Shown: positions 15,512 through 43,515 of the stretch, in pieces
Position numbering within the stretch: the first letter of the stretch is position 1
Layout of the letters: each line of letters begins with the position of its first letter
Virus record (IMG/VR): IMGVR_UViG_3300025652_000129
Span: 1 to 47,173 of that record
DNA length: 47,173 nt
Origin: a virus
Reading direction: 5' to 3' (one strand)
The notes under the pieces: model-generated
What the model saw: the letters and a program-made list of their open reading frames with translations, nothing else
Databases searched by the model: none
What the model was told of the DNA's origin: nothing
Translations under genes and position numbers: made by a program

Positions 15512-15518
15512 AATTTAT

Positions 15519-15548
15519 ACGGCGCCTCCAGTCTCCCTTCAGCGCCGT
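15519..15548 (-). promoter_or_regulatory. Stem-loop in the primase leader
   Basis: ACGGCGC (minus 15548-15542) pairs exactly with GCGCCGT (15525-15519) around a 16-base loop. The hairpin ends 7 bases before the primase ATG. The GGAGG at the loop-stem junction is the only ribosome-site-like sequence there, so folding could hide it and limit translation. Confidence 0.5.
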
Positions 15549-15563
15549 TGTCATAACAGTGTA

Positions 15564-16334
15564 TTATACTATGTCTTCTTGTTTTTGACTAGCATCATAT
15601 TTAGGTTTAGCAGTACCCTTAGAAACTTGTTTCTGAAGTTTCCCTGCTATCTCGTAAATAGACGCATCATTTTTATCTGACGCATCAAGAAGTCTAACTC
15701 TTGATGGTTTATAAACATGCCAGCTTTTACTTCCAGAAACTTTACCCATTGTATTTAATTTATACACAGATGAATAAGTTGCTGGATTATAAGAACCACC
15801 ATCATCATTGAATCTAAGATTCGTAATAAGATTATTTAGTTCTCTCGCTGGAGACAAATTAGAAGATCTCATTGGGATCACTGCAGGTTTTAACTCACCA
15901 TCTACCATTGCTAGTACATAGAAGTATGCAGTTTTCTCAACATAGTTACCATTTGGTAATCTGTATCTTCCATTTCTTTCTTCCACAGCATCGGCTGGAA
16001 TTTCTAAGTGAGTCGCTACCGGAGCAGACGAACTCTCTCCTCTTTCCTGCCATTCAGGATACCTAGTTTGAGTATGAGCAACTACAACATCTAATCCCTC
16101 TTCCCCATTTATAAGTTTACCAAACCCTGATGCATAAATCATACCAGGTTTAGATCCTTCTACATGTTTTGAATCTCTTTCATTACATTCTGGAGAGAGT
16201 TGGTGTAAGATTTTAAGAATCGGTGTTGACACGTCATCTGCTTTAATCTCCTCAGCTCCTTTACCTGCATCTGCTCTGAAATTGATTGTTGCCAATGCAC
16301 CTGCATTAGCCTTCTTTGTTACTTGACTTTCCAT
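15564..16334 (-). CDS. Replication-region protein, possible ssDNA-binding
   Basis: The 256-residue protein starts with a flexible segment containing TINFRADA (17-24), a motif shared with the next upstream gene. The body has beta-rich stretches (GLDVVVAHTQTRYPEW, AYFYVLAMVDGELKPAVIPM, GKVSGSKSWHVYKPSRVRLL) and the tail is Lys/Gln-rich ending EDIV. The size, beta content and place between helicase/primase and promoter suggest a single-stranded DNA-binding or related replication protein, but no signature proves it. Confidence 0.6.
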   Translation of the reverse strand: MESQVTKKANAGALATINFRADAGKGAEEIKADDVSTPILKILHQLSPECNERDSKHVEGSKPGMIYASGFGKLINGEEGLDVVVAHTQTRYPEWQERGESSSAPVATHLEIPADAVEERNGRYRLPNGNYVEKTAYFYVLAMVDGELKPAVIPMRSSNLSPARELNNLITNLRFNDDGGSYNPATYSSVYKLNTMGKVSGSKSWHVYKPSRVRLLDASDKNDASIYEIAGKLQKQVSKGTAKPKYDASQKQEDIV

Positions 16335-25630: not shown

Positions 25631-25659
25631 ACTTTATTTGATTTTTTTATCTTCGTCAA
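25631..25659 (-). promoter_or_regulatory. Weak candidate promoter
   Basis: TTGACG (25659-25654) and TAAAGT (25636-25631) are 17 bases apart on the minus strand, inside the end of the glycosyltransferase gene. It would give a leader of about 47 bases ahead of the ATG at 25577. Confidence 0.3.
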
Positions 25660-26524
25660 GAGGTTTGGCATGTTTTGCAGGCCTATGACCTTGATATAAA
25701 TCATCATAAAATCGACCACAATACTGAAACTCTCCAACATGTGTTATTACATCCATAACATAGATATGAACCTTACCACCCATATCACCCCACCTTTGAC
25801 AGAATCCAAAGTCTTCTCCAAAATAACGTTTTGTTTCAGGGTCATGAATAGTATCAAAAAGATTATACATATTATCTTTTTTCTCTTCTTTACCATTAAT
25901 GTAAGTAGGTTGAAATATTTCTAGCTCAGGGTAATGTCTAATCATACCCTCTAATACTTTTCTTTTAATTAACATACATCCTGTAGGAGCATGTGTCACT
26001 TCTATAATACCTTTGTCAGCTATTATGTTAGCATTGTCTTTTACTTTAATTGGGTAAGTATAACCAGCTCTAACTAAATCGTCAGCTGAAGTAATAGCAT
26101 CTTCTTTAGTATTTAGTCTTCTCCAAATTTTATCCCAATCTATCATCTTCATAGGATAAGGACATGCAATAACATCTTGATCTGCCTCTAACATTTTTTC
26201 AATAGTAGAGAACTGAAAGTCAATGTCTGAGTCTATAAATAATAAATGAGTGTAATTATCTTCATGGTTTAACATTTCAGATACACATAAATTCCTACCT
26301 TGTGTAACCAATGATGATTTCAGTAATGTAAAACTAACCTGTATTTTTTTCTGTATACACTGTTGTTGAAATTTTAAAACTGATTGAGTGTAATGCATAG
26401 ATGTATCACTATGACAAGGTGTACATACCATTATCTTATGTGGAGAAACATTACCTACATGTATTTCTGTTACTTCCTCTTCTGGTTTATTAAACCAGAT
26501 AGGTTTATTAGGACTTTGCACCAA
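25634..26524 (-). CDS. GT-A fold glycosyltransferase
   Basis: The 296-residue protein has IMVCTPCHSDTS (31-42), QGRNLCVSEML, the DxD motif LFIDSDIDF (D98, D100), VIACPYPMK, APTGCMLIKRKV and YFGEDFGFCQRWGDMGG. It is a longer paralog of the protein at 13176-13886. The DxD and GEDxxF elements support a metal-dependent sugar transferase. Its gene overlaps the GT-B gene upstream by 17 bases, so two glycosyltransferases are translated together in the structural region. The target could be a virion protein or a host polysaccharide. Confidence 0.8.
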   Translation of the reverse strand: MVQSPNKPIWFNKPEEEVTEIHVGNVSPHKIMVCTPCHSDTSMHYTQSVLKFQQQCIQKKIQVSFTLLKSSLVTQGRNLCVSEMLNHEDNYTHLLFIDSDIDFQFSTIEKMLEADQDVIACPYPMKMIDWDKIWRRLNTKEDAITSADDLVRAGYTYPIKVKDNANIIADKGIIEVTHAPTGCMLIKRKVLEGMIRHYPELEIFQPTYINGKEEKKDNMYNLFDTIHDPETKRYFGEDFGFCQRWGDMGGKVHIYVMDVITHVGEFQYCGRFYDDLYQGHRPAKHAKPLDEDKKIK

Positions 26525-27452
26525 TCGCTCCTTTTAAAAATCTTTCCCATGCGGCTGCTTGTTTATTCCAACTGTAATAAACATGAGCATAATGAGATTG
26601 CGATTCCATATGATTATGTATATGTGGATTATGTAAAGTTTTTGCTGCAGCTTCTATTCCATAACCAAATTTTTCTGCTAGCCTTCTGTGATTATCATCA
26701 TAAACAATATACATTGGAAACTCTGCACCTGTTTCATATAAAGCTCCATAATTAGTTGTTATACAATATAGTCCACCAGCCATAGCTTCTAGTAAAGATA
26801 TACAAGATGTCTCTTCAAAAATACTAGGGTAGACATACATATTATATTTATGCATGTTTGATTTAATGTAGTCATTAGATTTATAACCTATGTAATTTAC
26901 GTTAGGTAAATCTTCAGCTTGTTTATATAATTCTGTATAGTTATGATCATTCTCTTCATAAAATCTTTTTCCATATACTTCTGTAGAAGAATAAACATCT
27001 AAACTAATCAAAGGATTTTTTACCAACTGCATTGCACCTAGTAATACAGATAGACCTCTCCAAGGTGTGTTCTGGTGAATAATTTTTATAGGCTGTCCTT
27101 CTTCATAAGGTGCAGCTTTTGGTATTGTGTCTATACCATTTTTAATAACTACACATTTTTCTGTAGGAATACCAAACATCATTCTAAATTTTTCAAAGTT
27201 CCAATGTGAATTAAATACATACCAATCATATTTATGATGGTTGCTTTTGTTTTTAAACCATGGTGCAAGATTCGGTTGATCGTATGAATTCTTTTGCCAA
27301 AGTATATTTACTTTAGTAGGATGTAACGGAATTTTTTCAGGTACAGATGTTGTAATCTGAACTTGATCTAATAATTCTTTGTCAACGTATTTTTCTAAAT
27401 AACTAAATTGTAACTCTGTTCCACCTTTAGGTAGTTGGTTTCTTATTATCAT
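26508..27452 (-). CDS. GT-B glycosyltransferase, family 4-like
   Basis: The 314-residue protein begins IIRNQLPKGGTELQF, the glycine-rich N-terminal loop of GT-B enzymes. The C-terminal half has VVIKNGIDTIP (101-111), IIHQNTPWRGLSVLLGAM, VYPSIFEETSCISLLEAMAG (E214 and E222 form the E-x7-E motif) and a helical end. This is the classic GT4 retaining transferase layout, somewhat short because the linker is compact. It overlaps small genes on either side. It may build a glycan together with the GT-A partner at 25634-26524. Confidence 0.8.
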   Translation of the reverse strand: MIIRNQLPKGGTELQFSYLEKYVDKELLDQVQITTSVPEKIPLHPTKVNILWQKNSYDQPNLAPWFKNKSNHHKYDWYVFNSHWNFEKFRMMFGIPTEKCVVIKNGIDTIPKAAPYEEGQPIKIIHQNTPWRGLSVLLGAMQLVKNPLISLDVYSSTEVYGKRFYEENDHNYTELYKQAEDLPNVNYIGYKSNDYIKSNMHKYNMYVYPSIFEETSCISLLEAMAGGLYCITTNYGALYETGAEFPMYIVYDDNHRRLAEKFGYGIEAAAKTLHNPHIHNHMESQSHYAHVYYSWNKQAAAWERFLKGAIGAKS

Positions 27453-28146: not shown

Positions 28147-29057
28147 TACGAAAACATTGTGCCAGATGAAAGCATAGCTTCATTTTTCTTTTCTTCTAAT
28201 TCTTGTAATCTTTGATTTTGTTCTTCACTATTCATACCCAATTCTTTACCAGTTTTTAAAGTGTTGTATTCTCTATTTTCAAAATTAGATAATTTTGCCA
28301 TTAGGTTCTCTATAGAGCCAACTTGATCTTTCACTGGATCTTCTAAATTAGGAGCAAGTGGTTCTATAAATTGCCTGTTATAATTATTAGGTGCTACTCC
28401 CATTGGTAGAGAAGAATTTATATTAGGTTGTGCTAATGTTTGTATACCTTCAAACTGTAATTCAGGTAGATTACTAAAATCAAGAAATTGTTGCGTATTT
28501 TGCGCTGGAGTATTAGGAACAATTCCTAAACCTCTTTGTAAACCTGCAAGTCTTTCATCTAAGTCAGTCATGGTATAATCTCCATCTTCGTATTTTGTAT
28601 CTAAAGTATTTTGTATTGTGTTAATTCTACCAAGATTAATTCTTTGTTGTTTAGCATTTTCATATTCTTCTTGAGTATCATAACCCGTAAAATCTTTTCT
28701 AAATTTACCAAGTGCTTTACCTATACCCTCGTTAAAAAGAAAACTTGATCCAGGCACGGCAAAGCCAAATAATGTTTTAACTAAATTACTTAAACCACTA
28801 CCTCTAGGGTTAGGATTGAAAGGGCTAAATTTTTTACCTGTCTGATTAGCTCTTATGAAATTATTATTATTTAAAGTTTGTATAAAATCTCTTTCTGATC
28901 CGCCATAATTAACATCGGGACCACTATCATATGAAGGTCCTCCTACACTTCCAACAGCCTTACCTGCTTCAGCACTGCCTGGTGCTCCACTTCCACCTTG
29001 ATATGTGTCTGTTACTTCTCCTCCGCCAATATAATTTATTCTCTTATCTATCGCCAT
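28146..29057 (-). CDS. Structural-region hypothetical protein
   Basis: The 303-residue protein starts MAIDKRINYIGGGEVTDTYQ with a Gly/Ser-rich N-terminus, has FIRANQTGKKFSPFNPNPRG and a moderately hydrophobic segment LVKTLFGFAVPGSSFLFNEG, and ends with a coiled helix (LGMNSEEQNQRLQELEEKKN). It sits between the neck-type gene (29057) and several small genes and resembles accessory virion proteins. No enzymatic motif is visible. Confidence 0.6.
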   Translation of the reverse strand: MAIDKRINYIGGGEVTDTYQGGSGAPGSAEAGKAVGSVGGPSYDSGPDVNYGGSERDFIQTLNNNNFIRANQTGKKFSPFNPNPRGSGLSNLVKTLFGFAVPGSSFLFNEGIGKALGKFRKDFTGYDTQEEYENAKQQRINLGRINTIQNTLDTKYEDGDYTMTDLDERLAGLQRGLGIVPNTPAQNTQQFLDFSNLPELQFEGIQTLAQPNINSSLPMGVAPNNYNRQFIEPLAPNLEDPVKDQVGSIENLMAKLSNFENREYNTLKTGKELGMNSEEQNQRLQELEEKKNEAMLSSGTMFS

Positions 29058-31000
29058 TATCTTCTTCCATCTGGTTTAGCGTCAAGCCTTAATGTACCAT
29101 AACGCCATGTTTCACCCACAGCATCATTTTCTATTTTGAGTGCTACTAATCTCGCTCTTGCTCGTGTATCTACTTTATCAGTTGTTGAGGTAACTGTAAA
29201 GGGTCCAAGTGAAGAACTAGCTGCTGTGTTATTAGGGTAATCATTTAGTAACAAAGTAATTTTTGAATTGCCTTCTAATAATTGAAAGTCAGGTATAAAT
29301 CTTTTAACTGACATAATAAACTCACCATCTCCTCTAAAATCTGCAACACCCGTTTGCATTCCTAAACCACTAGATCTGTTAGCTATGTCATAATCCCCCG
29401 ATTGAATAAAAGCATCAATAGAAGTAGTACCTGAACTGTTAACCTGATCGGTCCCTGTTTCTTGAGCATAGTAAGTTGATGCTCCATAGGTTGCTGTAAT
29501 TCCTTGTATTGGAAAATTAGGTAAAGCTGTTTTATTATAATCAGTAGCATAAGGAAGTTCAAATACCCCTTGATCTAGATAACTACTTCTTGCAAGAGAA
29601 CTTGTAGTCCACACATTCTCAGCGTAATTATAAGTTACACATCTATCTATTTGAGAAGAACCAAATTTAGGGTAGAACCAATTAATTTCATTGTATAAAG
29701 TATTATGCTCTGCATAAACAAGAGGGCCTGAAGCATAATTAATTCCAAGATGATCTCCACCTGTTGTAAATACAAAATCTTCTACCAAACATGGTAAATA
29801 TTTTACTGTACCATCAAATTTAAAAAAACCTCCTTCACCTGACATCCAGTATACTTCACCATTAGAATAACTTAATGCATTTTGTCCAATACACCCACAG
29901 TTAGTTCCAACTTGTCTTACAGAAAAAGTAAATGGTGGTCCTACATATTGAATTACATAAGCAGCCAGATCTGTTAAAACTAAAGTGTAGTCTTTACCTG
30001 ATACAGCAGCTCTAATCTCATTACCTTTATCTAATAAAAAAGTACCTGCAGTGTTAGTTGCAGTGGGTTGATATGAATTAAAATTTTCTTGATCACTAAA
30101 TCTTATAAACATTGGGTTCTGAGTTGTAGAGCTACCAACAGTTGTTTCAGTTCCAAAATGAAACACATGTCTATCTCTATCTGATACTTGTGTAAGCCTA
30201 GATTTAGTAGGAGCATTAGCCATGATAGCTGCTCTATTTGCTCTTGGTGAAGCTGCACCAGCATTCCAAGTATATGTCTTGCCATTATGAATTGTTGCAA
30301 CTAATATCTGACCAAAGTTATCAAGGCTCCAGAGGCCTGCATCTAAAGTTACGTTACTAGTTGCACTAGCAGTTCCCCATGTACTTGATCCCCATGTAGA
30401 TGTTCCCCAACCTAAACCAGCTGTTTGAAAAGTTGGACCAACAATCTCATAAGGATTAACTGTAGCTGATCCAGTAGCAGTACTAGCACCTGCTGAGTTA
30501 GTAGGCATTGTAATTTGAAAAGTATTGTTTGTTTTGTTTAATACTTCAAAAGTATTATCTGTAAAATCTGCTATTGCATAACCTGAACTTGTAGGAACTG
30601 TTACTGCAGTGAAAGTTATATATCTTCCATCTAGTAATCCATGGCCCGTTTTATTAACTGTTACTGTAGGAGATCCAGCTGTAACAGTAAAAGTACAACC
30701 GGTAATAACATCATCATCTAAAGGACTAATGTCAAAAAATTCTTCGTCATAGTATAAAAATAAACCTTGAGAGGTTCCAATAGCTGCATATTTTTCTCCA
30801 GCTATAGAAGTAAAATCATGTTGTGCCCTTGCTACTCCAGGTAAAGTTTTATTACCTGTGGTTATCTGTGACCAACCACCTATTTTTTCTGGTAAACCAT
30901 ATCTAAATCTAACAAAATCACCGTCAACCCATTGTGATTCACCACCTGAGTCTGTAATTTGTTTATCAAATCCTGGCTTAAAATTAAGTTTTTGTAGCAT
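29057..31000 (-). CDS. Neck/tail structural protein with beta-rich insertion
   Basis: The 647-residue protein begins MLQKLNFKPGFDKQITDSGG and continues with GDFVRFRYGLPEKIGGW, repeated Trp/Gly motifs (WGTSTWGSSTWGTAS) and blade-like phrases (GEVYWMSGEGGFFKFDGTVK, TYNYAENVWTTSSLARSS). Many short beta repeats suggest a beta-propeller, as in phage stabilisation or tail-hub proteins. Near 110-180 an inserted domain has VNKTGHGLLDGRYITF and NNTFQITMPTNSA, a module seen repeatedly in phage structural proteins. The C-terminus ends RLDAKPDGRR. It probably seals or connects the tail. The gene lies directly after the oxygenase block. Confidence 0.65.
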   Translation of the reverse strand: MLQKLNFKPGFDKQITDSGGESQWVDGDFVRFRYGLPEKIGGWSQITTGNKTLPGVARAQHDFTSIAGEKYAAIGTSQGLFLYYDEEFFDISPLDDDVITGCTFTVTAGSPTVTVNKTGHGLLDGRYITFTAVTVPTSSGYAIADFTDNTFEVLNKTNNTFQITMPTNSAGASTATGSATVNPYEIVGPTFQTAGLGWGTSTWGSSTWGTASATSNVTLDAGLWSLDNFGQILVATIHNGKTYTWNAGAASPRANRAAIMANAPTKSRLTQVSDRDRHVFHFGTETTVGSSTTQNPMFIRFSDQENFNSYQPTATNTAGTFLLDKGNEIRAAVSGKDYTLVLTDLAAYVIQYVGPPFTFSVRQVGTNCGCIGQNALSYSNGEVYWMSGEGGFFKFDGTVKYLPCLVEDFVFTTGGDHLGINYASGPLVYAEHNTLYNEINWFYPKFGSSQIDRCVTYNYAENVWTTSSLARSSYLDQGVFELPYATDYNKTALPNFPIQGITATYGASTYYAQETGTDQVNSSGTTSIDAFIQSGDYDIANRSSGLGMQTGVADFRGDGEFIMSVKRFIPDFQLLEGNSKITLLLNDYPNNTAASSSLGPFTVTSTTDKVDTRARARLVALKIENDAVGETWRYGTLRLDAKPDGRR

Positions 31001-31021: not shown

Positions 31022-31546
31022 TTAAGTAAAAAAGCCATTATCTTTTAGATTAAAACTAATGCCATATTTAGTATTTTTAAATCTATGAATCTTTGCTTCG
31101 TGATCTAAAAAAGAAGAAAATATAGCAAATACACCTTCCTCTGGTTTTACTTTTTCATTAATCGCATCAAAATCTAAAGTTTGATCATGACTATTTAAAT
31201 ATAATACACCCGACCATTCATTCCCTCTATGGTTATGCTTTATAGTTTTGCCTCCACTAGAACAACTAAATCCCCAAGAATCAGCTAAACTGTATGTAGG
31301 AAAATTAATGTTAGAATCTACATAATCGATTAGTGTATTTAAGACACCTAAAAATTCCGGATCATTGTTAAAATGTTTCCAACTAGTCATTTTGTCTATT
31401 ATGTTAGTCTGGTAATTTAAATTACCTTCTTTTTCACATCCCTCTTTAATTTTGTTTATTAAAGATTTAGCATTAATTTTTATTACACCTTGTACAAAAA
31501 AATAATCTATTTTAATTTTTTTTTCTAAATGTTTATGAATAATCAT
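31022..31546 (-). CDS. 2OG-Fe(II) oxygenase-like protein (HxH variant)
   Basis: I begin at ATG 31546, whose ATGA overlaps the previous stop, rather than five codons upstream. In the 174-residue product the double-stranded beta-helix motifs are: SWGFSCSSGGKTIKHNHRGN (H104, H106), WSGVLYLNS, EEGVFAIFSSFLDHEAKI (H149) and KYGISFNL (K160). H-x-H in place of H-x-D is a pattern I associate with the 2OG-FeII_Oxy_5-like subfamily. It likely uses 2-oxoglutarate and O2 to hydroxylate an unknown substrate. It is the last gene of the seven-gene block. Confidence 0.7.
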   Translation of the reverse strand: MIIHKHLEKKIKIDYFFVQGVIKINAKSLINKIKEGCEKEGNLNYQTNIIDKMTSWKHFNNDPEFLGVLNTLIDYVDSNINFPTYSLADSWGFSCSSGGKTIKHNHRGNEWSGVLYLNSHDQTLDFDAINEKVKPEEGVFAIFSSFLDHEAKIHRFKNTKYGISFNLKDNGFFT

Positions 31547-31875
31547 AATACTATATTCCAATCTAACTTAGATATTATTTCTTTAATGTTAATCATTTTT
31601 AAATTATTATCTTTTATATAATTATGTAGCTCTTCTAAATCTATAAGTAAATATTTATCCTTTATTTTAAAAACCATCTTATCTGCTTTTGTTTTTAAAT
31701 GACTTTTTTTACCTACTCCTTCTTTAAAAGAACTTAAATTTCTAGTATCAAACTTGAACACTTGATTACTTTTATTTTTAATAATGCCGGAAACATCCCA
31801 CAACTCTTTTTCTTGCTGTTCTTTTGTAGGGTATGTAACATCTGTTAGATAAGTTTCAATAAAATTAATATTCAT
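31543..31875 (-). CDS. Hypothetical protein within the oxygenase block
   Basis: The 110-residue protein has FIETYLTDVTYPTKEQQEKE, GVGKKSHLKTKADKMVFKIK and YLLIDLEELHNYIKDNNLKM. It contains no H-x-D or distal His pattern and is too short to be an oxygenase fold. It could be a partner or substrate carrier of the neighbouring enzymes. The gene starts 1 base after one oxygenase and is coupled to the next by ATGA, so it is a genuine member of the operon. Confidence 0.6.
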   Translation of the reverse strand: MNINFIETYLTDVTYPTKEQQEKELWDVSGIIKNKSNQVFKFDTRNLSSFKEGVGKKSHLKTKADKMVFKIKDKYLLIDLEELHNYIKDNNLKMINIKEIISKLDWNIVL

Positions 31876-31876
31876 T

Positions 31877-32404
31877 CTATTTAAAAGTAAAAACTATAAC
31901 AACTCTAATATCTTTTTTAGGGTATTTTAAATAATGTTTATAGTCTTCAAAATATAAACCCCTATATTTTTTAGTTTCCACTTGTTTATATATTTTATTA
32001 TCTTTTTCTAAAACCGTACTAGCTTCAGGATTATCAGTGCAATAAACTAATAAAGATTTATGTTTATATTTATGGTCAACATGACTAGCTGTTTTTTCAA
32101 AACCATTATTAAATGATATATTAACAGCGCATCTTAAAATTCTTGTACAATTTATTTTATGTTTCTCAACAAAGTCATATAGTATTTCTAATAGTGCAGT
32201 TGACTCTGAAGAATTTACAACAGGATAACTAGGATCATGTCCTTCTGGTCTTGTCACTGCTGTGTGAACCATGTAAATATGATTATCATTTTCTACAGAG
32301 TTCTCTTGAATATAATAAGGATAATCACTTCCTAGTATAAACTCATCTACATATTTTTTATTTTCTTCAGACATAAAGTTGTCATCTATTATTACTTTAT
32401 TCAT
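31877..32404 (-). CDS. 2OG-Fe(II) oxygenase-like protein
   Basis: The 175-residue protein has RILRCAVNISFNNGF followed by ASHVDHKYKHKSLLVYCTDN (H108, D110), then a distal H157 in DYKHYLKYP and R167 in KKDIRVVIVFTFK, which ends the protein. That is the complete H-x-D ... H ... R set of a 2-oxoglutarate/Fe(II) dioxygenase. The N-terminal 85 residues are helical. It is similar to phage oxygenases whose substrates are unknown. Overlap with the upstream gene is 8 bases. Confidence 0.75.
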   Translation of the reverse strand: MNKVIIDDNFMSEENKKYVDEFILGSDYPYYIQENSVENDNHIYMVHTAVTRPEGHDPSYPVVNSSESTALLEILYDFVEKHKINCTRILRCAVNISFNNGFEKTASHVDHKYKHKSLLVYCTDNPEASTVLEKDNKIYKQVETKKYRGLYFEDYKHYLKYPKKDIRVVIVFTFK

Positions 32405-32978
32405 AATTTAACCATCCTGTAAGTATATATTTATTTTGATCTTCTGAAATAATTCCTCTATGGGTATGTGTCCAATCAGATGGCCACAATAAAGTTAATC
32501 CTTTTTCAGCATTTACTTTTAATTTTTGATTGTAAAATTCTGTTCCACCTTCTTTAACATTATTAAGATAAGTCATGAAAACCATAACTCTAGTAGTTTT
32601 CTGCATAACTAATCTTTCAGAATGCCAAGCTTTAAAACCTTCTCCAGGTTTATAGTGTTGAAAATTTATACCTTCTTTTTCCGCTAGAGCACCATTAAGA
32701 TTAAAGGGTTGATATACTTTTGCATATGCTTGAACTCCTTTGTTTAAAAAAGACATATATTTTTTATATAAACTAAAAGACGCAACTATATCGAAATCTT
32801 TATCAGAAGATATTTTATATTCTTTATCCCTAGTAGGTTTTCCATCTTTAGTTAAACAACCTCCTTCTCTGGTTAAATCAGGATTATCATTATGCCATTT
32901 TAAAACATCATCACAAAACTGATGAGGTAAGTACCAACCAAATATAAAACTATTAAAAGGAAATTTTTTTAATCTCAT
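32397..32978 (-). CDS. 2OG-Fe(II) oxygenase (prolyl hydroxylase-like, HxE)
   Basis: The 193-residue protein shows INFQHYKPGEGFKAWHSE (H119, E121), RVMVFMTYLNNVKEGGTEFY, EKGLTLLWPSDWTHTHRG (H171/H173) and NKYILTGWLNYE (K183). This 'AWHxE ... YLND...GGTEF ... PAxxxHTHRG ... KY..TGW' pattern resembles a prolyl-4-hydroxylase-like group in marine phages. Glu replaces the usual Asp. It probably hydroxylates a protein or small molecule. Overlap with both neighbouring oxygenase genes is 4-8 bases. Confidence 0.8.
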   Translation of the reverse strand: MRLKKFPFNSFIFGWYLPHQFCDDVLKWHNDNPDLTREGGCLTKDGKPTRDKEYKISSDKDFDIVASFSLYKKYMSFLNKGVQAYAKVYQPFNLNGALAEKEGINFQHYKPGEGFKAWHSERLVMQKTTRVMVFMTYLNNVKEGGTEFYNQKLKVNAEKGLTLLWPSDWTHTHRGIISEDQNKYILTGWLNYE

Positions 32979-33556
32979 CTGTGTATATTAAAATCTATAT
33001 TAAGTGTCTGTCTTATGCCTTTTACTTGTGGATAAGAACCATGCCAAATCCAACAAGGGAATATAAAAAAATCATTGGTTTGTGGATAATGAGAATAGTA
33101 TAATAACCTGTTGTCTTTATTTAAGATATAATAAAAATCTCCTAGGTCTATTAATTTTTCATCGTTGTGATCTTTGGGAGGAACACTTAAATATGTAACA
33201 GTTGAAATAATATTTTGTGGTTTATTTTTGTGTGCATGCATTGCATGAAAACTTCCTACATCTCCTATTACAGTCCAAGCATTGTTTAAAGTAATAAGAG
33301 GATCAGTGCCATTTCTTTTTTCAAATTCTTGTGTAATTTTATTAGAACAGTTTTCTAATATAAATTGAAACTTATCATCATTTAAAAATAATTCTTTTAA
33401 ATCGTATTGTTTAGATTGACTTCCTCGTGTGCTTAACTCTTTTAAATCGTTTTCTTCTAAATTTTTAATAGCATCATTTACTACTTTTTTAGTTTTAGAT
33501 ACTTGTGTGATATCAGTTTTAATAAACCAGTCTTCGTGAAATCTCATGTTATTCAA
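32975..33556 (-). CDS. 2OG-Fe(II) oxygenase-like protein (HxH variant)
   Basis: The 193-residue protein has NNAWTVIGDVGSFHAMHAHK (H107, H109), ISTVTYLSVP, DFFIFPCWIWHGSYPQV (H172) and IRQTLNIDFNIHR (R182). This is the layout of the 2OG-FeII_Oxy_5-like group, in which a H-x-H pair replaces H-x-D, followed by a distal His and an Arg for 2-oxoglutarate. It is distinct in sequence from its operon neighbours and more like the last gene of the block. Overlap with the upstream gene is 8 bases. Confidence 0.75.
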   Translation of the reverse strand: MNNMRFHEDWFIKTDITQVSKTKKVVNDAIKNLEENDLKELSTRGSQSKQYDLKELFLNDDKFQFILENCSNKITQEFEKRNGTDPLITLNNAWTVIGDVGSFHAMHAHKNKPQNIISTVTYLSVPPKDHNDEKLIDLGDFYYILNKDNRLLYYSHYPQTNDFFIFPCWIWHGSYPQVKGIRQTLNIDFNIHR

Positions 33557-34175
33557 CCTTTAAATTATTATGTGCTGGTAAACCTATGTGTAATCTACCA
33601 TCGTATGCTTTTAAGTTTTTTTCTTTTAATTCTTTTGTAGTGTTATAATGTAAAAACAATTGAACACATTCAGCTTCTTCAAATTTATTTCTCCAATGAG
33701 GTAAGTCACCATTATAAATTAATATATCCCCAGGGTTTAAAATAAATTCTACGCCATCTACATATATAGGCCACAATCCACCACCTATAGGAAGTGTAAC
33801 AGATATTTGGCAAGCATTTCTATCAGTGTGTTTACTTAAAATATTTCCTCTTTTATATATTCTAGCAAAAGAATAACTCTCTATAAGCCTACCACCATCA
33901 TATGATTTTAAATTTTTTACTTCTTCTTGTATTATTACCCTTAGTTTATTTAAAATAACTTCACCAGCAACATCTCCATAAATAATATAGTCTGTTCCAG
34001 GTACCATTTCATCCTCGGCTCTACCAAATAAATGTTCTAAATAAGGAGGTATTATTTTTTCTTTTAACATAGTTCTAAAAGATTTTCTTTTCATCAAAAA
34101 GTATTTATGTAAAAATTCTAAAAGATCTTTTGATAGGACATTTCGAAGTACCTTATATCTAAATTGTTGGCTCAT
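33549..34175 (-). CDS. 2OG-Fe(II) oxygenase-like protein
   Basis: The 208-residue protein contains YSFARIYKRGNILSKHTDRN (H116, D118), CQISVTLPIGGG, WPIYVDG, LNPGDILIYNGDLPHWRNKF (H160) and CVQLFLHYN. The RIYxxGxxLxxHTDR and DLPHWR phrases resemble a marine-virus oxygenase group. The usual downstream Arg/Lys that holds 2-oxoglutarate is not obvious; Arg162 or another residue may serve. It overlaps the first gene of the block by 4 bases. Confidence 0.75.
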   Translation of the reverse strand: MSQQFRYKVLRNVLSKDLLEFLHKYFLMKRKSFRTMLKEKIIPPYLEHLFGRAEDEMVPGTDYIIYGDVAGEVILNKLRVIIQEEVKNLKSYDGGRLIESYSFARIYKRGNILSKHTDRNACQISVTLPIGGGLWPIYVDGVEFILNPGDILIYNGDLPHWRNKFEEAECVQLFLHYNTTKELKEKNLKAYDGRLHIGLPAHNNLKVE

Positions 34176-34792
34176 TTAAATGGATACCCCATAGACCAAC
34201 CTACTAAAGAGTTTCTTTCTCCTTTAGTAATAGGTGTTACTTTATGTTTAATAAAAGAAGGAAAAAAAACTATTGATCCTTTCTCTTTTAATTGAACACA
34301 CTCGACAATTTTATTTTCCTCTGCACCTGGAAATTCAAAAAGCAACTGCCCACCCTCATATTTTTTTGGATCAGATAAGTTAATACTAAAAGATATTTTT
34401 CTATACTTTCCATGTATTGAAGGATCACTTGGGTTATTAAAAGGCATAGCTAAATTATCAAAATGCCAATCATAATGTTGATTTTTTTTGTATCGTGTAA
34501 ATTGTAAATCTTCAAAACAATCAACTTCATAGTTCCAATCAGCCATTTTATTTGCTTCTTGCAACAAGGGATAAATGCAATCATAAATCCATGGTTCGTT
34601 TATCCAACATATATCAGAATCTCTAAGAGAAAGATTTTTTTTAAATTGATGGTTTGAGTCTTTCATCTCAGCTTTCTTTTTAGAAACAACTCCTTTATCA
34701 AAAGTTTTATTCTTAGCAATTTCTTTTATAGAATCACAAAACTTGTCATTAAAAGCTTTTGAAAAATAGTAATAATAATTATCTAGATACAT
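34172..34792 (-). CDS. 2OG-Fe(II) oxygenase, PKHD-type hydroxylase-like
   Basis: First gene of the seven-gene block. The 206-residue protein has DLQFTRYKKNQHYDWHFDN (H110, D112), RKISFSINLSDPKKYEGGQL, KGSIVFFPSFIKHKVTPI (H183) and RNSLVGWSMGYPFK (R193). It is a full H-x-D ... H ... R set in the arrangement of PKHD-type (PiuC-like) hydroxylases. An AAAGAAGA ribosome site precedes the ATG, and a promoter candidate lies in the gap just upstream. The substrate cannot be read from the sequence. Confidence 0.85.
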   Translation of the reverse strand: MYLDNYYYYFSKAFNDKFCDSIKEIAKNKTFDKGVVSKKKAEMKDSNHQFKKNLSLRDSDICWINEPWIYDCIYPLLQEANKMADWNYEVDCFEDLQFTRYKKNQHYDWHFDNLAMPFNNPSDPSIHGKYRKISFSINLSDPKKYEGGQLLFEFPGAEENKIVECVQLKEKGSIVFFPSFIKHKVTPITKGERNSLVGWSMGYPFK

Positions 34793-34814
34793 ATCTATCT
34801 TCTTTATAAAAATA

Positions 34815-34842
34815 TTTATATATTATAAATCTAAAAAATCAA
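34815..34842 (-). promoter_or_regulatory. Candidate promoter of the oxygenase block
   Basis: TTGATT (34842-34837) and TATAAA (34820-34815) lie 16 bases apart on the minus strand in the 53-base gap before the first oxygenase gene, giving a short leader that retains the AAAGAAGA ribosome site. It would let the block be expressed apart from the structural genes. Confidence 0.45.
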
Positions 34843-34845
34843 TAA

Positions 34846-35292
34846 TTATTGCCAACTAGAAGTATCGGGATTCCAAACAACTTTTTGTTCAGTTGTGGTA
34901 AAAGCAATCCACACTTGATTTTCTTCGTCCCAAATAGGAGCAAATGAATAATCTGGAACTGCAGCATCTGTATAAGCACTGGGTTCTGTTACAGGAGCTT
35001 TCCATTTATAATCAGAATTTAAAGACCAACTAGCGAAAGGTTTAACTGTAATAAATACATCATTTGTAGAATCGTAGTAACCACCATTTGGTTCTGCTCC
35101 ATTAACTCTAAAAGACTCGTCATTAGAAAATTGTTTTATACTTGCAGAAGCATCTTTTAATAAATTTTGTTTTACCCAATTTTCAGCTTCTACAGATTGA
35201 TCTCCTCCGTTAGCATCAACGTCAGCTTGATCAACTACAAATATATCTATAACATTATTGTTTTCATCTAATTTTGCAAATTGAGTCATCAT
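34846..35292 (-). CDS. Tail-fibre-associated protein
   Basis: The 148-residue protein begins FAKLDENNNVIDIFVVDQAD and has GGYYDSTNDVFITVKPFASW, LNSDYKWKAPV and VWIAFTTTEQKVVWNPDTSS near the end. This pattern is familiar from short proteins next to cyanophage and marine phage fibre genes and is thought to be virion-associated. Its first ATG overlaps the stop of the Gly-rich fibre gene (ATGA). A second ATG follows directly. Confidence 0.65.
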   Translation of the reverse strand: MMTQFAKLDENNNVIDIFVVDQADVDANGGDQSVEAENWVKQNLLKDASASIKQFSNDESFRVNGAEPNGGYYDSTNDVFITVKPFASWSLNSDYKWKAPVTEPSAYTDAAVPDYSFAPIWDEENQVWIAFTTTEQKVVWNPDTSSWQ

Positions 35293-36254
35293 GATAGTGC
35301 TAAGTTCCCTGATACGTTAAATGTAGCTATTCTGTCATTTCCAGAATTGGCAATTGAATTTGAACCTGGAGAAACAGATCCACTTAAATTATTAGCAAAT
35401 CTTATAATTACTTTTCCATTTCCACCAGAAGTTTGACCCATAACACGGTTTCCACCACCGCCACCACCTTGGCCGTCAGTACCATTTGATGCACCAGAAT
35501 CTCTCATACCAGGTCCACCGCCACCATTTCCTCCTGATCCAAATGGAGAAGCAGCATAACCATGAGTTCCGCCACCACCGCCACCACCAAAAGTTTGTGA
35601 TGATCCATTAATACTATTAGCAGTTCCATTTCCTCCAGGACCTGCTACATCAAACATTGAGTTTGATTGTCCATTGTTAGCAGTTCCACCGCCACCAGCT
35701 GATGGAGAAGCATTTGATGATGGAGAGTTTCCTCCGTCTCCACCCTGATTTCCTGATCCTCCTGACGTTGCAGTGTTTCCACCTCCACCGCCACCTCCGC
35801 AACCTCCAGCAGAGCCGTTGTTATTTCCGTTTCCACCTGCTCCACCTCCGTTTGCTGTTTTGTTAAAAGAAGGACTTGATATGTTAGAAGTTCCACCTGT
35901 TCCTGTAGAACCTGATCCTACAGTAACACCTACAGTTTGACCTGCAGCTACTGGTTCTGCTGTTCCACTAGGATAATTTGATGTTAAGCCTCCAGCTCCA
36001 CCACCCCCTGCAGCATGTCCAGGACCGCCTGATCCTCCAGCCAATACCATATAGTACATATCAGTAGTAGATTCTGCTCCTCTAAACTGACCTATAGAAA
36101 TAGTTCCTGAACTAGGAATAGGGCCATTAGGTGCGGGTGAACCTGAAGGAACGTTTGATCCTCCAGAATAATATTCTGATAAAGAGATTGGATTTGATCC
36201 ACCAAATTCATCTTGGATATCATCCATACTTGTATTTGTTTGTGGTATAGCCAT
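35289..36254 (-). CDS. Glycine-rich tail fibre or adhesin
   Basis: The 321-residue protein has an N-terminal attachment region (IPQTNTSMDDIQDEFGGSNP, then SLSEYYSGG and GTISIGQFRGA), then about 200 residues dominated by Gly with Ser, Asn and Thr, including runs of five to seven glycines. The end (KVIIRFANNL, FNVSGNLALS) is beta-like. Glycine-rich sandwiches occur in distal phage adhesins such as T-even gp38, where polyglycine-II helices display variable loops. It likely touches the host surface. It is also a possible target of the adjacent oxygenases, given its many Asn residues; that is speculation. Confidence 0.7.
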   Translation of the reverse strand: MAIPQTNTSMDDIQDEFGGSNPISLSEYYSGGSNVPSGSPAPNGPIPSSGTISIGQFRGAESTTDMYYMVLAGGSGGPGHAAGGGGAGGLTSNYPSGTAEPVAAGQTVGVTVGSGSTGTGGTSNISSPSFNKTANGGGAGGNGNNNGSAGGCGGGGGGGNTATSGGSGNQGGDGGNSPSSNASPSAGGGGTANNGQSNSMFDVAGPGGNGTANSINGSSQTFGGGGGGGTHGYAASPFGSGGNGGGGPGMRDSGASNGTDGQGGGGGGNRVMGQTSGGNGKVIIRFANNLSGSVSPGSNSIANSGNDRIATFNVSGNLALS

Positions 36255-36255
36255 C

Positions 36256-37218
36256 TTACTTTTTCTCCTTAGTTAAAGTTTCTATTTTTTCATTTAATTT
36301 TTTTACAGCTTCAATTAATAAACAAGTTAGTCTATCATATTTTACAGCTTTAATTCCATCTTTTCTTTGAGCAACTGCTTCAGGTAATACTTTTTCTACC
36401 TCTTGAGCTATAACTCCAACATCTTTTTTTCTAACAAAATAACCGTCTTCACCGCCTTGATGCTCAATCCATTTATCTTTCCAATTAAATAACACACCAT
36501 TTAATTTTTTCAAGGATTCTAATGCATCTGGTATATTTGTAATATCTTCTTTTAATGCGATGTCTGAAGAATAAAATGCTGTAATATCATCTGTAGCTCT
36601 AATCTGTCCAGTTGTACCTGATGCTGCAGTTCCAATACCTAATGAATCTAGTTTGCCATCATTAAATTCTACATCGTTTGTAGTTCCTAATCCTATTGAA
36701 TCTCTTGCTGTAGAACCAGATTCAGCAACAAGATTAGAACCATCTCCTACGATAAAGTTTCCATTTGTATTAGCTACGTCTGCTAAGTCTAATAAATTCT
36801 GTGTGTTATTTATTACTTCAACAACATTTGTTCCGTCTGAATAAACAATAGCACGAGTTTTTTCAGTTGTACCAAAAGTAAAACCTGATCCAGAAGTGGT
36901 TTTAACAGTTACTGTGTGAGCACCTGAAGTAGCATTTTCAACTATATATGTTTTTTCAATTGAATTAGGTATAATAACATTAACATTTGTAGTTATAGTT
37001 CCTGTTAATTTTATTACTTGATTTTTACCATTAGACACAACACCATTAGAAAAAGTTAAAGTTGCGCCTGTTGTTGCATTTAATGCAATGCCAGCATATC
37101 CACCAATAGCTTGTTCTAATACAAGTAGGTTACTATTTGTAAAAGCTCCCCACGTACCTGAGTTTTCACCGGTCGTTTGGACTGTTAATTTTAAACTAGC
37201 TGAGGTTGAGTTTGCCAT
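36256..37218 (-). CDS. Tail fibre with C-terminal S74 chaperone domain
   Basis: The 320-residue protein starts with SASLKLTVQTTGENSGTWGA, a common fibre N-terminus, followed by beta-repeat sequence. From about residue 217 it has a Peptidase_S74-type intramolecular chaperone: SSDIALKEDITNIPDALESL, NGVLFNWKDKW, KKDVGVIAQEVEKVLPEAVA, KAVKYDRL and a helical end. In this family the Ser of SD and a Lys form a cleavage site that frees the chaperone after trimerisation. The same domain ends the 824-residue fibre at 38125-40599. Confidence 0.8.
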   Translation of the reverse strand: MANSTSASLKLTVQTTGENSGTWGAFTNSNLLVLEQAIGGYAGIALNATTGATLTFSNGVVSNGKNQVIKLTGTITTNVNVIIPNSIEKTYIVENATSGAHTVTVKTTSGSGFTFGTTEKTRAIVYSDGTNVVEVINNTQNLLDLADVANTNGNFIVGDGSNLVAESGSTARDSIGLGTTNDVEFNDGKLDSLGIGTAASGTTGQIRATDDITAFYSSDIALKEDITNIPDALESLKKLNGVLFNWKDKWIEHQGGEDGYFVRKKDVGVIAQEVEKVLPEAVAQRKDGIKAVKYDRLTCLLIEAVKKLNEKIETLTKEKK

Positions 37219-38124: not shown

Positions 38125-40599
38125 TTAGGCTCCTGATTTAAGTTCTTCTATTTCTTTTTTAAGTTCTTTTACAGATTCAATTAATAGAGCACACAGTCTT
38201 TCATATTTAACTGCTTTTGTTCCATCATCTCTTGTCTGAACAATTTCAGGTAATACTTCTTCAACTTCTTGTGCGATGACACCAATTTCTTTTTCTTTAC
38301 CAAAATGTTTATGTTTTTCTTGAGCTTCAAAAGTCCAGTTGTAGTAAACACCATTTATTTTAGAAACTTTATCTACGGCATTTTCTATATTAGAAATATT
38401 TTCTTTAAGAGTCTTATCTGAAGAAGAGAAAGCAGTAATATCACCTGTTGCTGTAATTGCACCAGTGACTGCTAAAGTTGAACCATCAAACGATGCGTTA
38501 GCTTCTGCGTTCATAGCATCAGCACCAGTAGCTGTAACAATTCTGTTGTTTGAACCATTAGACATAAAGTCAGACACATCTACAGAAATTGCATCTGCAG
38601 CAACATCAATACCTGTACCTGCTCCAATGTTTAAAGTAGCAGCTCCACTAGTAGCTCCTCCAGTTAAACCAGACCCTGCTACAACTGAAGTGATGTCTCC
38701 AGTGTTTGTAGTATATCCAGCGTCATTATTAAAACCAGAGTTATTAATATTTCCTTTAGTTAATTTTTTCTGATTGTTAGAAGAATCAACTACACAGAAG
38801 AAGTCGCCATCTCCATTTGAAGTAGAAGTTGCAAGTTCTGATAAGTCTACATCTACTTGGTCTGCTTGAACGTCAATTAAATTCCCTGCTGCAACATTTA
38901 AAGTTACATCACCTGATGTTCCACCACCAGTTAAACCAGTTCCTGCTACAACAGAAGTTATATCTCCAACTGTTGGAGTTTGAAAAGATGGTTGTGCCCC
39001 AGCCCCTGCTGAAGTTAAAACTTGCCCTGAACTTCCTGTTGCTATCGCAACTGGATTCCCTGAAGCGTCATAAGAAATAATATTACCATCTGTACCTGAT
39101 GCCATTTTTGCTAATGTCACTGCATTGTCTTGAATTTCTGCTGTAGCCACACCAGCGTCTTTAATTGTTATTGCACCAGAACTAGCGGCAAAGTTGTCTG
39201 AGCTAAATGAGGCAGCTCCTTTGGCAGACGTAGAAGCATCTGCTAAATTAATAGTAACATCTCCTGATGTTCCACCGCCTGTTAAATTTGTTCCAGCTGT
39301 GACTGCTGTAATATCTCCAACTGTAGGTGTTTGAAAAGATGGTTCTGCTCCCGCACCTGCACTTGTTAAAACCTGTCCTGCACTCCCTGTTGCTATCGCA
39401 ACTGGATTACCTGAAGCATCATATGAAATAATATTTCCGTCTGTGCCTGATGCCATTTTGGCTAGTGTGATTGCATTGTCTGCTACTTTAGCAGTTGTAA
39501 CATTTGAATCTACAATGGAAGCGGTCACTACAGCGCTTGCTGCAAGTTGGTCTGCCCCAACTGCATCATCTGCAATTTTGGCTTGGGTCACTGCATCCGC
39601 AACTATAGAAGCAGTTACTACAGCACTAGATGCTAATTGATCTGCACCTACTGCATCATCACCAATCTTAGCTTGGGTTACTGCATCGTCTTGAATTTCT
39701 GCTGTGGCTACTCCCGCATCTTTAATTGTTATTGCGCCAGAACTAGCAGCAAAGTTATCTGAACTAAATGATGCAGCTCCTTTAGCAGATGTAGAAGCAT
39801 CAGCTAAGTTTAATGTAACGTCACCTGATGTGCCGCCACCTGTTAAATTTGTACCCGCTGTTACAGCTGTAATATCTCCAACTGGAATTGAAGCTACTTC
39901 TGTATCTACGTATGCTTTAATTGATTGCTGTGTTGCTAAGTGACTAGCACTGTTAGATGCCATATTATCTTCATCTTTAATTGAAGTTCCACTTATTGTG
40001 CTATTTAAAACTGCACTTGTTAAAGTTTTATTTGTTAGTGTTTGTGAAATATCTACGGCAACCAAATCTTGTGTACCAGTATCACCACTATCAGGAAGTC
40101 TTAATGAGTTTCCCGCAGCTGCTGAGTGTGGTTGTGGTAGTAGTGTTTGATAGTGAGCATTTGAAACCTCACAATACATTCTTAAAGCAGCTGGTGATCC
40201 ACTATTAGATTTGAAGTCAATAACACCACCTAAAACTGTAAGATCATCTCCAACAGATAAATCTGCTGGAAGTGTAACATTACTACTTGCATCTTCTATA
40301 ACTGCTTTTGATGCGGGTAAAGTTACAAAAACATCTTTAGTTCCAGCTGAAAAGTTTACTGCTGAATCACTATTAGATGATGAGATAACAGTAGTCCTAG
40401 CCAAAGCTGCGGCTGATACTGTTCCTAATCCAACTTCAAACTCTCCATTACTATTTACGATTGCATAGTAAGTTGTATTACCATTTCCAATCGCTGATGA
40501 AAAAGTTTCAAAACCTGTTACTGCTCCTGCAAGAGAAAGCGTACCTGTACCAGTAGTGGTAGAAGTTTCTTTAACTCTATCATTTATCACTAAAGCCAT
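38125..40599 (-). CDS. Long tail fibre with repeats and S74 domain
   Basis: The 824-residue protein has a fibre N-terminus (ALVINDRVKETSTTTGTGTL), then blocks beginning GDITAVTAGTNLTGGGTSGD and continuing NLADASTSAKGAASFSSDNF; two such blocks are almost identical and two more are shorter. Between them lie units of the type DAVTQAKIxDDAVGADQLA. The C-terminal S74 domain carries SSDKTLKENISNIENAVDKV, NGVYYNWTFEAQ and KEIGVIAQEVEEVLPEIVQT. This is the long receptor-binding fibre. The repeated blocks probably stack as a triple-stranded shaft. Confidence 0.8.
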   Translation of the reverse strand: MALVINDRVKETSTTTGTGTLSLAGAVTGFETFSSAIGNGNTTYYAIVNSNGEFEVGLGTVSAAALARTTVISSSNSDSAVNFSAGTKDVFVTLPASKAVIEDASSNVTLPADLSVGDDLTVLGGVIDFKSNSGSPAALRMYCEVSNAHYQTLLPQPHSAAAGNSLRLPDSGDTGTQDLVAVDISQTLTNKTLTSAVLNSTISGTSIKDEDNMASNSASHLATQQSIKAYVDTEVASIPVGDITAVTAGTNLTGGGTSGDVTLNLADASTSAKGAASFSSDNFAASSGAITIKDAGVATAEIQDDAVTQAKIGDDAVGADQLASSAVVTASIVADAVTQAKIADDAVGADQLAASAVVTASIVDSNVTTAKVADNAITLAKMASGTDGNIISYDASGNPVAIATGSAGQVLTSAGAGAEPSFQTPTVGDITAVTAGTNLTGGGTSGDVTINLADASTSAKGAASFSSDNFAASSGAITIKDAGVATAEIQDNAVTLAKMASGTDGNIISYDASGNPVAIATGSSGQVLTSAGAGAQPSFQTPTVGDITSVVAGTGLTGGGTSGDVTLNVAAGNLIDVQADQVDVDLSELATSTSNGDGDFFCVVDSSNNQKKLTKGNINNSGFNNDAGYTTNTGDITSVVAGSGLTGGATSGAATLNIGAGTGIDVAADAISVDVSDFMSNGSNNRIVTATGADAMNAEANASFDGSTLAVTGAITATGDITAFSSSDKTLKENISNIENAVDKVSKINGVYYNWTFEAQEKHKHFGKEKEIGVIAQEVEEVLPEIVQTRDDGTKAVKYERLCALLIESVKELKKEIEELKSGA

Positions 40600-41716: not shown

Positions 41717-42586
41717 TTAATATGTAGCTGCTATATATGCGTTAAAGTTATTATTAACAGGACCTGCCAAACAATTCAAGCCCCCTCCTGCTCCAACTGG
41801 TGAAACAAATAAGTTACCTGAGTCATTATCCTTTAAATTGTAACTATTAGCAACAGTTATTGTTGAAGGTTGACCCGCTTGAGATTGTGTTGTTTCATTT
41901 AAAGAATGTACTAATCTTGCACCACATATTTTTGCTCCACTTGAATGAGAACTTGCATTAGTTTTAACAGGAGTTACTCCTCTAAATGGTGCATTAGTTC
42001 CTCTAACCAAACCTGATAATGTTCTTGAACCAGAATTATAACTTGTGTACTGAATAACTTCATTATCAAAAAATCCTGTGTCAGGATTAATTTTTTGAAT
42101 AACGATATAACCACCATTTGTATAAAATGGAAGATCATCATTTACGATTAAAGAAGTATCTGTAGAACTTATACTTGTATTTAATAGTGTTTCCATTTCT
42201 ATAGTTTTTTTTGTTCCAGTCGAACCACCTGCAGCTAATAAATCAGTTTGAATACTCATTAATCTTACAACGTCTCCTACTAGTATTCCACTATTAGGTT
42301 GGTTAACAACATAAGCTGCACCAACAACAGAAAGGTTTGTTTGACTAATTGGATTTTCTGGTAATAAATCTGGAGTAGCTATAGGTGCAACTTGAGGTCT
42401 TGCTTTTTCTAAACCTTGTGGGTCCGATACAAAAGGACTTGGTTCTAATTGTGGTTGCTTACGTTCATACTCTGAGTAATGTACAAACTGACCATTCCAT
42501 TCAGTAACCATTTCTCTCCAAGGAAAAGCTAAACCACTTCGATCAGAAATTGCTAAAGCGTGTTTCCCTTTTGCAAACTTCGCCAT
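41717..42586 (-). CDS. Neck/connector protein with inserted beta domain
   Basis: The 289-residue protein starts MAKFAKGKHALAISDRSGLA and FPWREMVTEWNGQFVHYSEY, then KQPQLEPSP. Residues 135-205 contain a beta module (LLNTSISSTDTSLIVNDDLP, EVIQYTSYN, LSGLVRGTNAPFRG) that is also found in the next upstream protein. The last 80 residues are Gly/Asn-rich. The N-terminal phrase is one I know from marine phage neck genes. The gene overlaps the upstream neck gene by one base, and the adaptor gene begins 2 bases after it. Confidence 0.65.
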   Translation of the reverse strand: MAKFAKGKHALAISDRSGLAFPWREMVTEWNGQFVHYSEYERKQPQLEPSPFVSDPQGLEKARPQVAPIATPDLLPENPISQTNLSVVGAAYVVNQPNSGILVGDVVRLMSIQTDLLAAGGSTGTKKTIEMETLLNTSISSTDTSLIVNDDLPFYTNGGYIVIQKINPDTGFFDNEVIQYTSYNSGSRTLSGLVRGTNAPFRGVTPVKTNASSHSSGAKICGARLVHSLNETTQSQAGQPSTITVANSYNLKDNDSGNLFVSPVGAGGGLNCLAGPVNNNFNAYIAATY

Positions 42587-43515
42587 TAGATCTCCGGATA
42601 ATAAGTTTTAGGTGAAATATAAACACTTGCAGATGAACCATCTTCTTCTAATGCTCTCATTAATTCATCTTCATAAAGTAACTTCATCTCTTGAGTTCTT
42701 TGAGGTGCTTTCTTTTGTGACATATAATAAGCTAAACCGGCACACATACAAGGTACAAATCTATTAACTACATCTGCTTCGTTTGTATATTTACCTGCAT
42801 CTTGTAATCTTTGTAGGTAATAAAAATATATAAAATCTCCAACTTGGTTTGTACCTGGAGTTAAATATAAAGTTATTGATACTCTATCTATAAACCTTTG
42901 AACCCAATATTGAGAAGGTTGACCTGTTGCTGATTTATTTGAGAAAGCTGAATATTGTGATCTATTAACTTTTGATAAAGGTGAGTCTACATTTAAAGAA
43001 GTTCTGTAACTAGCTTCTAACATATCTGAAGCCATGTTTACAAAATTTGTAACAGTGTCATTCACTGCGTGACTAGCTGCAGTAGTATCATCAACACCTC
43101 TTACAGCTCCTGTTAAACTTAAAGTTGATATTCCTGTGTAAGAAATAATTTCATTATTAATTTTTATTTTTCCAGATTCAGGCATCTGGTTAACAGATTC
43201 AAGTGGAATAGTTGTGTCTGTAGTATTTATTGCGCTAGCTAAAGTAGCTGTAATACCATTAGAAGATCCATCGCTTGGTGATCTATATATTACATATTCA
43301 TTCTGACCATTAATTAAACTAAAAGCATGTTCTCTAACTTGCCAAAAATGAATACCTCTATTGTCCCACTCTTGAAGCATTATGTTTAATGATCTTCTAG
43401 CTGATCTTAAATCATTACCAGAGTAATCAAAGAAACCTAATCTTTCAAAGGCCTCAGTTATAATTTCATCGATCGAGAAGTTTTTCTCGAATGTAGCTGT
43501 TCCTGAGAAAGCCAT
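42586..43515 (-). CDS. Head-to-tail connector / tail tubular-type protein
   Basis: The 309-residue protein has IDEIITEAFERLGFFDYSGN, LRSARRSLNIMLQEWDNRGI and HFWQVREHAFSLI, the classic beginning of tail-tube-A or packaged-DNA-stabilisation proteins. Residues 90-150 are a beta module (INTTDTTIPLESVNQMPESG, INNEIISYTG, LTGAVRGVDDTTAASHA) like that of its neighbour. The C-terminal part (RFVPCMCAGLAYYMSQKKAP) is helical. It should bind the portal-adaptor ring. A clear GGAG ribosome site is present. Confidence 0.7.
   Translation of the reverse strand: MAFSGTATFEKNFSIDEIITEAFERLGFFDYSGNDLRSARRSLNIMLQEWDNRGIHFWQVREHAFSLINGQNEYVIYRSPSDGSSNGITATLASAINTTDTTIPLESVNQMPESGKIKINNEIISYTGISTLSLTGAVRGVDDTTAASHAVNDTVTNFVNMASDMLEASYRTSLNVDSPLSKVNRSQYSAFSNKSATGQPSQYWVQRFIDRVSITLYLTPGTNQVGDFIYFYYLQRLQDAGKYTNEADVVNRFVPCMCAGLAYYMSQKKAPQRTQEMKLLYEDELMRALEEDGSSASVYISPKTYYPEI

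Follow-up and report, generated by a model that had tools for sequence, protein, structure and literature searches.

A block of six diverse 2OG-Fe(II) oxygenase genes seems to be part of an exchangeable receptor-binding cassette in a marine phage related to SAR11-infecting viruses

The DNA analysed here (the window) is the 47,173-nucleotide viral record IMGVR_UViG_3300025652_000129 of IMG/VR, from a marine phage that is related to SAR11-infecting viruses. At 31022-34792 it carries seven tightly packed open reading frames (ORFs) on the minus strand, g7 to g1, which overlap by 4, 8, 4 and 8 bases or, in one place, are separated by a single base; g1 and g2 also overlap by 4 bases when g1 is started at the ATG at 31546 instead of the TTG at 31561. 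Six of the seven encode members of the 2-oxoglutarate- and Fe(II)-dependent (2OG-Fe(II)) oxygenase superfamily, drawn from four sequence families. The array begins with g7 (34172-34792; PF13640/phrog_61; H110xD112..H183..R193) and continues with g6 (33549-34175; phrog_2954, with a predicted prolyl-hydroxylase-like fold; H116xD118..H160), g5 (32975-33556; PF13759; H107xH109..H172), g4 (32397-32978; PF13640/phrog_61; H119xE121..H173..K183), g3 (31877-32404; phrog_274; H108xD110..H157..R167) and, beyond the exception g2 (31543-31875), which encodes a 110-residue non-oxygenase protein, g1 (31022-31546; PF13759; H109xH111..H154, residues counted from the TTG at 31561). An earlier reading made from the letters alone (the sequence-only reading) had described the tight packing and the six motif-bearing genes as we find them; its 'at least three sequence types' become four families, which together with their low identity rule out simple tandem duplication as the origin of the array. 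The promoter-like site that it placed upstream of the block is at chance level, as 32 such sites were found against 32.4 expected.

The oxygenase assignments draw on Pfam searches at curated cut-offs, the ligands in family alignments, the Pfam matches of relatives and, for g6, a fold model. Four of the six proteins pass a Pfam cut-off themselves, g7 (3.3e-15) and g4 (2.9e-8) for PF13640 and g5 (5.4e-8) and g1 (1.9e-8) for PF13759. By sequence, the nearest relatives in the PDB are the PKHD-type hydroxylase PiuC for g7 (7e-9), 2rg4 for g5 (2.6e-9) and prolyl 4-hydroxylases (P4Hs) for g4 (7e-7), and profile comparison ties g1 to both g5 and g7. The motif set is HxD..H..R in g7 and g3, HxE..H..K in g4, HxH..H in g5 and g1, and HxD..H in g6, and the metal ligands are invariant or at least 90% kept in each family alignment: they are invariant in g1, g4 and g5 and across 20 relatives of g7, R105, Y107, H116, D118, H160 and R162 are invariant in the 30 sequences aligned for g6, and H108xD110, H157 and R167 are nearly so in a strict alignment of the g3 family. 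In the wider survey described below, the motif, counted with a basic residue required 8-13 positions past the distal His, was present in 385 of 401 unique array proteins, whereas shuffled sequences averaged 154 and the other ORFs had it in 59 of 550 cases; since the 401 were picked by homology to the window genes, this count measures retention of the motif and not its discovery.

In the Pfam scan no cut-off was passed by g3 or g6 themselves, which matched only the phage families phrog_274 and phrog_2954, respectively, and these carry the PHROGs labels 'DNA endonuclease V' and 'ferrochelatase'. A comparison of the g6 profile with those of g7 or g3 gave nothing useful, and it was structure that decided g6. 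Its AlphaFold2 model (predicted local distance difference test, pLDDT, 92.5) shows an oxygenase fold, this being the one of the six oxygenases whose fold was modelled; the top Foldseek match in the PDB is the Pseudomonas putida P4H in complex with EF-Tu (3e-8, probability 1.00; sequence identity about 16%), followed at lower ranks by PHD-type hydroxylases (PHD2, Dictyostelium PHD) and other 2OG enzymes. None of the ferrochelatase Pfam models matched g6, any of its 29 relatives or the tested isolate proteins that bear this name. Judged by this predicted fold, the 'ferrochelatase' of phrog_2954 is misnamed and resembles prolyl hydroxylases. For the g3 family, PF13640 was matched by 7 of 17 members (best 3e-8), and no endonuclease Pfam model matched g3, 16 relatives or the so-named isolate proteins; on these Pfam relatives and the HxD...H...R motif, the 'DNA endonuclease V' label of phrog_274 is a misnomer too. 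Because the direct profile match between g3 and g7 is weak, g3 is, on its sequence, the least secure of the six assignments. Iterative profiles that started from g3 spread to other oxygenases (372 hits) and were replaced by the strict alignment and by Pfam searches on the relatives, and searches of PDB sequences with g3, g2, t1 and t2 (the last two introduced below) gave no firm match.

All seven genes are under purifying selection, since the ratio of nonsynonymous to synonymous substitution (dN/dS), compared between the window and three related loci of the survey (L008, L009 and L010), lies between 0.09 and 0.42, values that are approximate because synonymous divergence is high. The highest belongs to the comparison with g3 of L009, which has lost ligands. 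This gene (6659-7174) and g1-like genes in L035, L036, L041 and L051 lack the HxD or the distal His and are possible pseudoenzymes, to judge from their motifs. Such members are what would be expected if the proteins were non-catalytic jelly-rolls or iron-carrying virion components of the Ferrojan-horse type; they are few, nearly all other members keep the metal ligands and several families keep a 2OG-type basic residue, and we regard this explanation as very improbable. The product of g2 has no firm match in Pfam or PHROGs. Its 14 relatives are divergent and every one lies inside an array. The lack of an oxygenase motif described by the sequence-only reading stands, and the protein may be a partner, as that reading suggested. 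The gene often adjoins t0, the gene at the far border of the array, is the most conserved of the block and has a dN/dS of 0.10-0.14. A RecU-like nuclease was considered for g2 from its model (pLDDT 79.5) and was dropped, the matches being weak (E 0.12).

On the side of g7 the array is bordered by minus-strand fibre genes: t1 (34846-35292), which encodes a 148-residue fibre-associated protein of phrog_7759; t2 (35289-36254), a presumed fibre-tip protein with 29% glycine and a PF21722 assignment; and t3, whose C-terminal part (36256-36818) holds an S74 chaperone domain and whose N-terminal part (36819-37218) is a conserved anchor. Past g1 lies the minus-strand backbone gene t0 (29057-31000), which encodes a 647-residue virion structural protein of phrog_3287 that is 68.6% identical to its homologue in HTVC027P, where gene order toward the capsid gene is similar; this homologue, QGZ17856.1, is one of the five core proteins on which PMC9599517 builds its phylogeny.

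Relatives of g7, g6, g3, g2 and g5 were gathered from IMG/VR into numbered loci (L-numbers), of which 51 are complete islands with both borders present; several of these are near-copies of the window, and 29 remain after dereplication. Between t1/t2/t3 and t0 the 51 islands hold 1-10 oxygenases, and at least six in 28 of them (15 of 29 after dereplication). The block of diverse, intact and selected oxygenases is thus kept in related phages, and the sequence-only reading was wrong, for this phage group, in thinking six consecutive genes unusual. The coding cover is 0.7-0.98 in most islands, and glycine makes up 25-40% of t2 in 29 of 29 dereplicated loci.

The array follows the fibre tip and hardly the backbone. 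Over the 29 dereplicated islands, Mantel tests correlated array similarity with that of t1 (r 0.76, p 1e-4) and of the t2 C-terminus (r 0.72, p 1e-4), against 0.17 for t0 and 0.07 (p 0.10) for the t3 N-terminus, and the t1 and t2 correlations were unchanged with t0 partialled out. The oxygenase gene that adjoins t0 tracks t1 (0.63) and not t0 (0.22), and distance alone therefore does not explain the co-inheritance. Where t0 is at least 75% identical, 21 of 27 pairs share no oxygenase, yet nine pairs with t0 below 50% have at least half of their oxygenases in common. Sorted by t1 and array, 10 pairs were high in t1 and array alike, 390 were low in the two, and 6 had common arrays with t1 at 42-58%, and no pair among these islands joined a t1 identity of at least 60% to a different array. 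Rank correlations over all pairs are weak (0.2-0.3), because for most pairs there is no relation in either respect and the signal is carried by the minority that share a cassette.

Pairwise alignments give the edges of the exchanged segment. The window is 84% identical to L040, L039 and L042 through t0 up to 31001, and homology is then absent as far as 36818 inside t3, save for about 150 bp in g7, so that in these same-backbone relatives the t3 C-terminal part is replaced with the rest. The t3 border is again 36818 in L022, L018 and L115, with slightly more scattered array matches, and L017 becomes homologous again already at 36075, within t2. The opposite picture is given by L009, L010 and L011, in which the array, t1 and the end of t2 match the window at about 69-77% but t0 is either not covered or more divergent; against these loci the breakpoint in t2 lies at 35807-35894. 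In these alignments the breakpoints are inside the fibre gene t3 or t2 and at the border between array and t0, and the t3 N-terminal anchor remains outside. Since the array tracks t1 and t2 and hardly t0, and since breakpoints flank them together, the array seems to be part of a receptor-binding cassette that can be exchanged. A second sample, whose seeds were relatives of g4, had t1 or t2 within 2.5 kb of 24 of 29 runs of at least four oxygenases but of 4 of 20 singletons (p 2e-5); where both flanks were present, the figures were 9 of 10 for runs of at least three and 4 of 13 for shorter runs (p 0.01). The t1 profile was unusable for a reverse survey, as no stretch of it is conserved enough.

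The same trio of array, t1 and t2 is found in myoviruses and podoviruses, namely HTVC008M, S-SM1, HTVC023P, HTVC033P, 023Pt_psg01 and DSL-LC04, the last with one oxygenase; Mosig EXVC030M has an array and a glycine-rich protein, with no match to t1. Runs of at least five oxygenases in published isolates are hidden by wrong names, as in HTVC008M gp068-072, Mosig EXVC030M 55-60 and most of S-SM1 051-061, which are annotated under mixed names. Beside the run of Mosig EXVC030M (L122) lie genes annotated as haem oxygenase and phycocyanobilin:ferredoxin oxidoreductase (3651-4887), and inside that of S-SM1 (L123) SSM1_058 (15317-16018) matches 4Fe-4S families below threshold and none of the oxygenase profiles.

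Breakpoints confined to conserved flanking genes could also mean that the island is a hot spot whose oxygenases act on targets other than the fibre, serving for example counter-defence or the takeover of the host, and are simply carried along with the tip. The wide variation in content, order and orientation would fit such cargo, arrays being inverted or orientation-split in L029, L037, L062-L066 and HTVC027P. However, nearly all of the cargo is one enzyme superfamily plus g2, no pair has a high t1 and a different array, and the same fibre-tip genes adjoin the arrays in separate phage lineages, for which reasons we consider this explanation unlikely.

We give a probability of about 0.5 to the reading that the t3 C-terminal part, t2, t1 and several oxygenases form one cassette that is swapped as a unit and whose enzymes hydroxylate the fibre tip. 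From the co-inheritance, and from active sites that are intact, we infer that the enzymes serve the tip, and protein hydroxylation is the simplest route because their nearest solved relatives are largely protein hydroxylases (the P4H bound to EF-Tu, PHD2, Dictyostelium PHD, PiuC and P4Hs). The enzymes would be made late, in the cytoplasm, alongside the tail proteins, and would hydroxylate side chains of t2 and/or t1, and possibly of the t3 end, before assembly. Each array would be a set of activities suited to its own tip, the modifications would tune the folding, stability or receptor contact of that tip, and a new tip would need its own enzymes. If the array does belong to the cassette, the search for substrates narrows to two or three virion proteins, which could be examined in cultured phages, and ecological inferences on phage haem metabolism that build on phrog_2954 need revision. 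More tentatively still, the host-recognition tips of marine phages may be diversified post-translationally, the up to 10 hydroxylases of each cassette installing a cassette-specific pattern of oxidised residues; if true, this would be a way to vary receptor-binding proteins other than by sequence change.

Several points weigh against this reading. In HTVC027P three array genes are present but no t1 or t2 can be recognised, and the stretch examined of Pelagibacter phage Greip contains a relative of t1 and no gene annotated as an oxygenase; the association of array and fibre tip is therefore not absolute. Most of the loci are metagenomic contigs that were found by array-gene similarity, and co-inheritance with fixed breakpoints could also come from recombination hot spots. 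The resemblance to prolyl hydroxylases is a feature of the whole superfamily, and the small-molecule oxygenases okaE and FtmOx1 also rank high among the Foldseek matches of g6. The enzymes might instead modify precursors of the host surface, for instance as a block to superinfection matched to the receptor of the co-inherited fibre, which would also predict co-inheritance with the tip; we find this improbable, given that most of the nearest solved structures are those of protein hydroxylases and that the array genes lie between late structural genes.

Groups of 2OG-Fe(II) oxygenases in abundant ocean phages have long been read as metabolic genes, in part due to the ferrochelatase label. Sullivan et al., 2010 (PMC3037559) list T4-GC 615 as hypothetical with a ferrochelatase domain and propose 2OG/nitrogen roles, Wittmers et al., 2022 (PMC9599517) report in HTVC023P-type pelagiphages eight co-located, non-orthologous oxygenase groups and an oxygenase beside every 'ferrochelatase', and a 2024 time series (PMC11561400) treats phrog2954 as ferrochelatase. 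All three propose auxiliary metabolic genes (AMGs), which on such a reading would consume or sense 2-oxoglutarate and iron and so alter the nitrogen, iron or haem metabolism of the host, and host iron genes do rise during HTVC027P infection (PMC12753301). But the haem argument rests on a 'ferrochelatase' that has a predicted oxygenase fold and no ferrochelatase Pfam match, and metabolic roles do not predict 6-10 different enzymes changing with the fibre tip on a constant backbone, so that we hold the AMG explanation to be improbable. The pelagiphages of PMC9599517 have protein families in common with the window and probably belong to the same phage group; their genes are described as nearby, non-adjacent AMGs with ferrochelatase partners, with no fibre link stated in the passages covered, whereas the window has a contiguous block, a 'ferrochelatase' that is itself a predicted oxygenase and an array co-inherited with the fibre tip. 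Oxygenase co-location has thus been reported already, and what is new is the fibre-tip cassette context: we found no paper tying arrays to an exchangeable fibre tip in the open literature, covered partly in excerpt, with subscription papers outside that scope.

Numerous divergent paralogues from these Pfam families are likewise present in T4-like cyanophages; S-SCSM1 has 24 oxygenase genes (PMC9602691), and in S-SM1 the run has a glycine-rich protein and a relative of t1 as neighbours. The cyanophage genes differ in that many copies are scattered and that control of 2OG/nitrogen or repair of DNA has been published as their role. DNA repair is an older proposal for single cyanophage oxygenases (PMC9146016), which in some loci adjoin uvsY/uvsW, and such singletons elsewhere probably do other jobs. 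For the arrays, DNA or nucleotide modification or repair of the AlkB/TET type is the least probable of the explanations weighed: the sequence of g6 gives a weak match of TET-like type (E 0.41), but the arrays co-vary with tail genes and nothing in their region connects them with DNA genes; those genes of the window that are recognised as DNA metabolism genes sit at 3.5-19 kb.

Among characterised proteins, the P. putida P4H, which acts on EF-Tu, and PiuC are the closest solved structures, by fold for g6 or by sequence for g7 and g4, although the P4H is distant from g6 in sequence, as noted above. Phage 2OG oxygenases close to human EGLN3 are also reported with Phold (PMC12774648). Like the gp38 adhesins of T-even phages, t2 is glycine-rich, lies last in a fibre operon and is swapped as an adhesin would be; it had no sequence match to solved gp38 structures in the PDB search. 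To our knowledge, known gp38 loci carry no oxygenase array.

Elsewhere in the window, the fibre proteins encoded at 38125-40599 and 36256-37218 are related in their N-terminal and S74 C-terminal parts, the longer one having internal repeats. The genes at 41717-42586 and 42586-43515 both match a profile of t0 relatives, possibly via profile drift, and two separate genes (13176-13886 and 25634-26524) both match phrog_1574, a family of unknown function. Downstream of t0 lies a glycosyltransferase gene (26508-27452), and HTVC027P and HTVC023P also carry one nearby.

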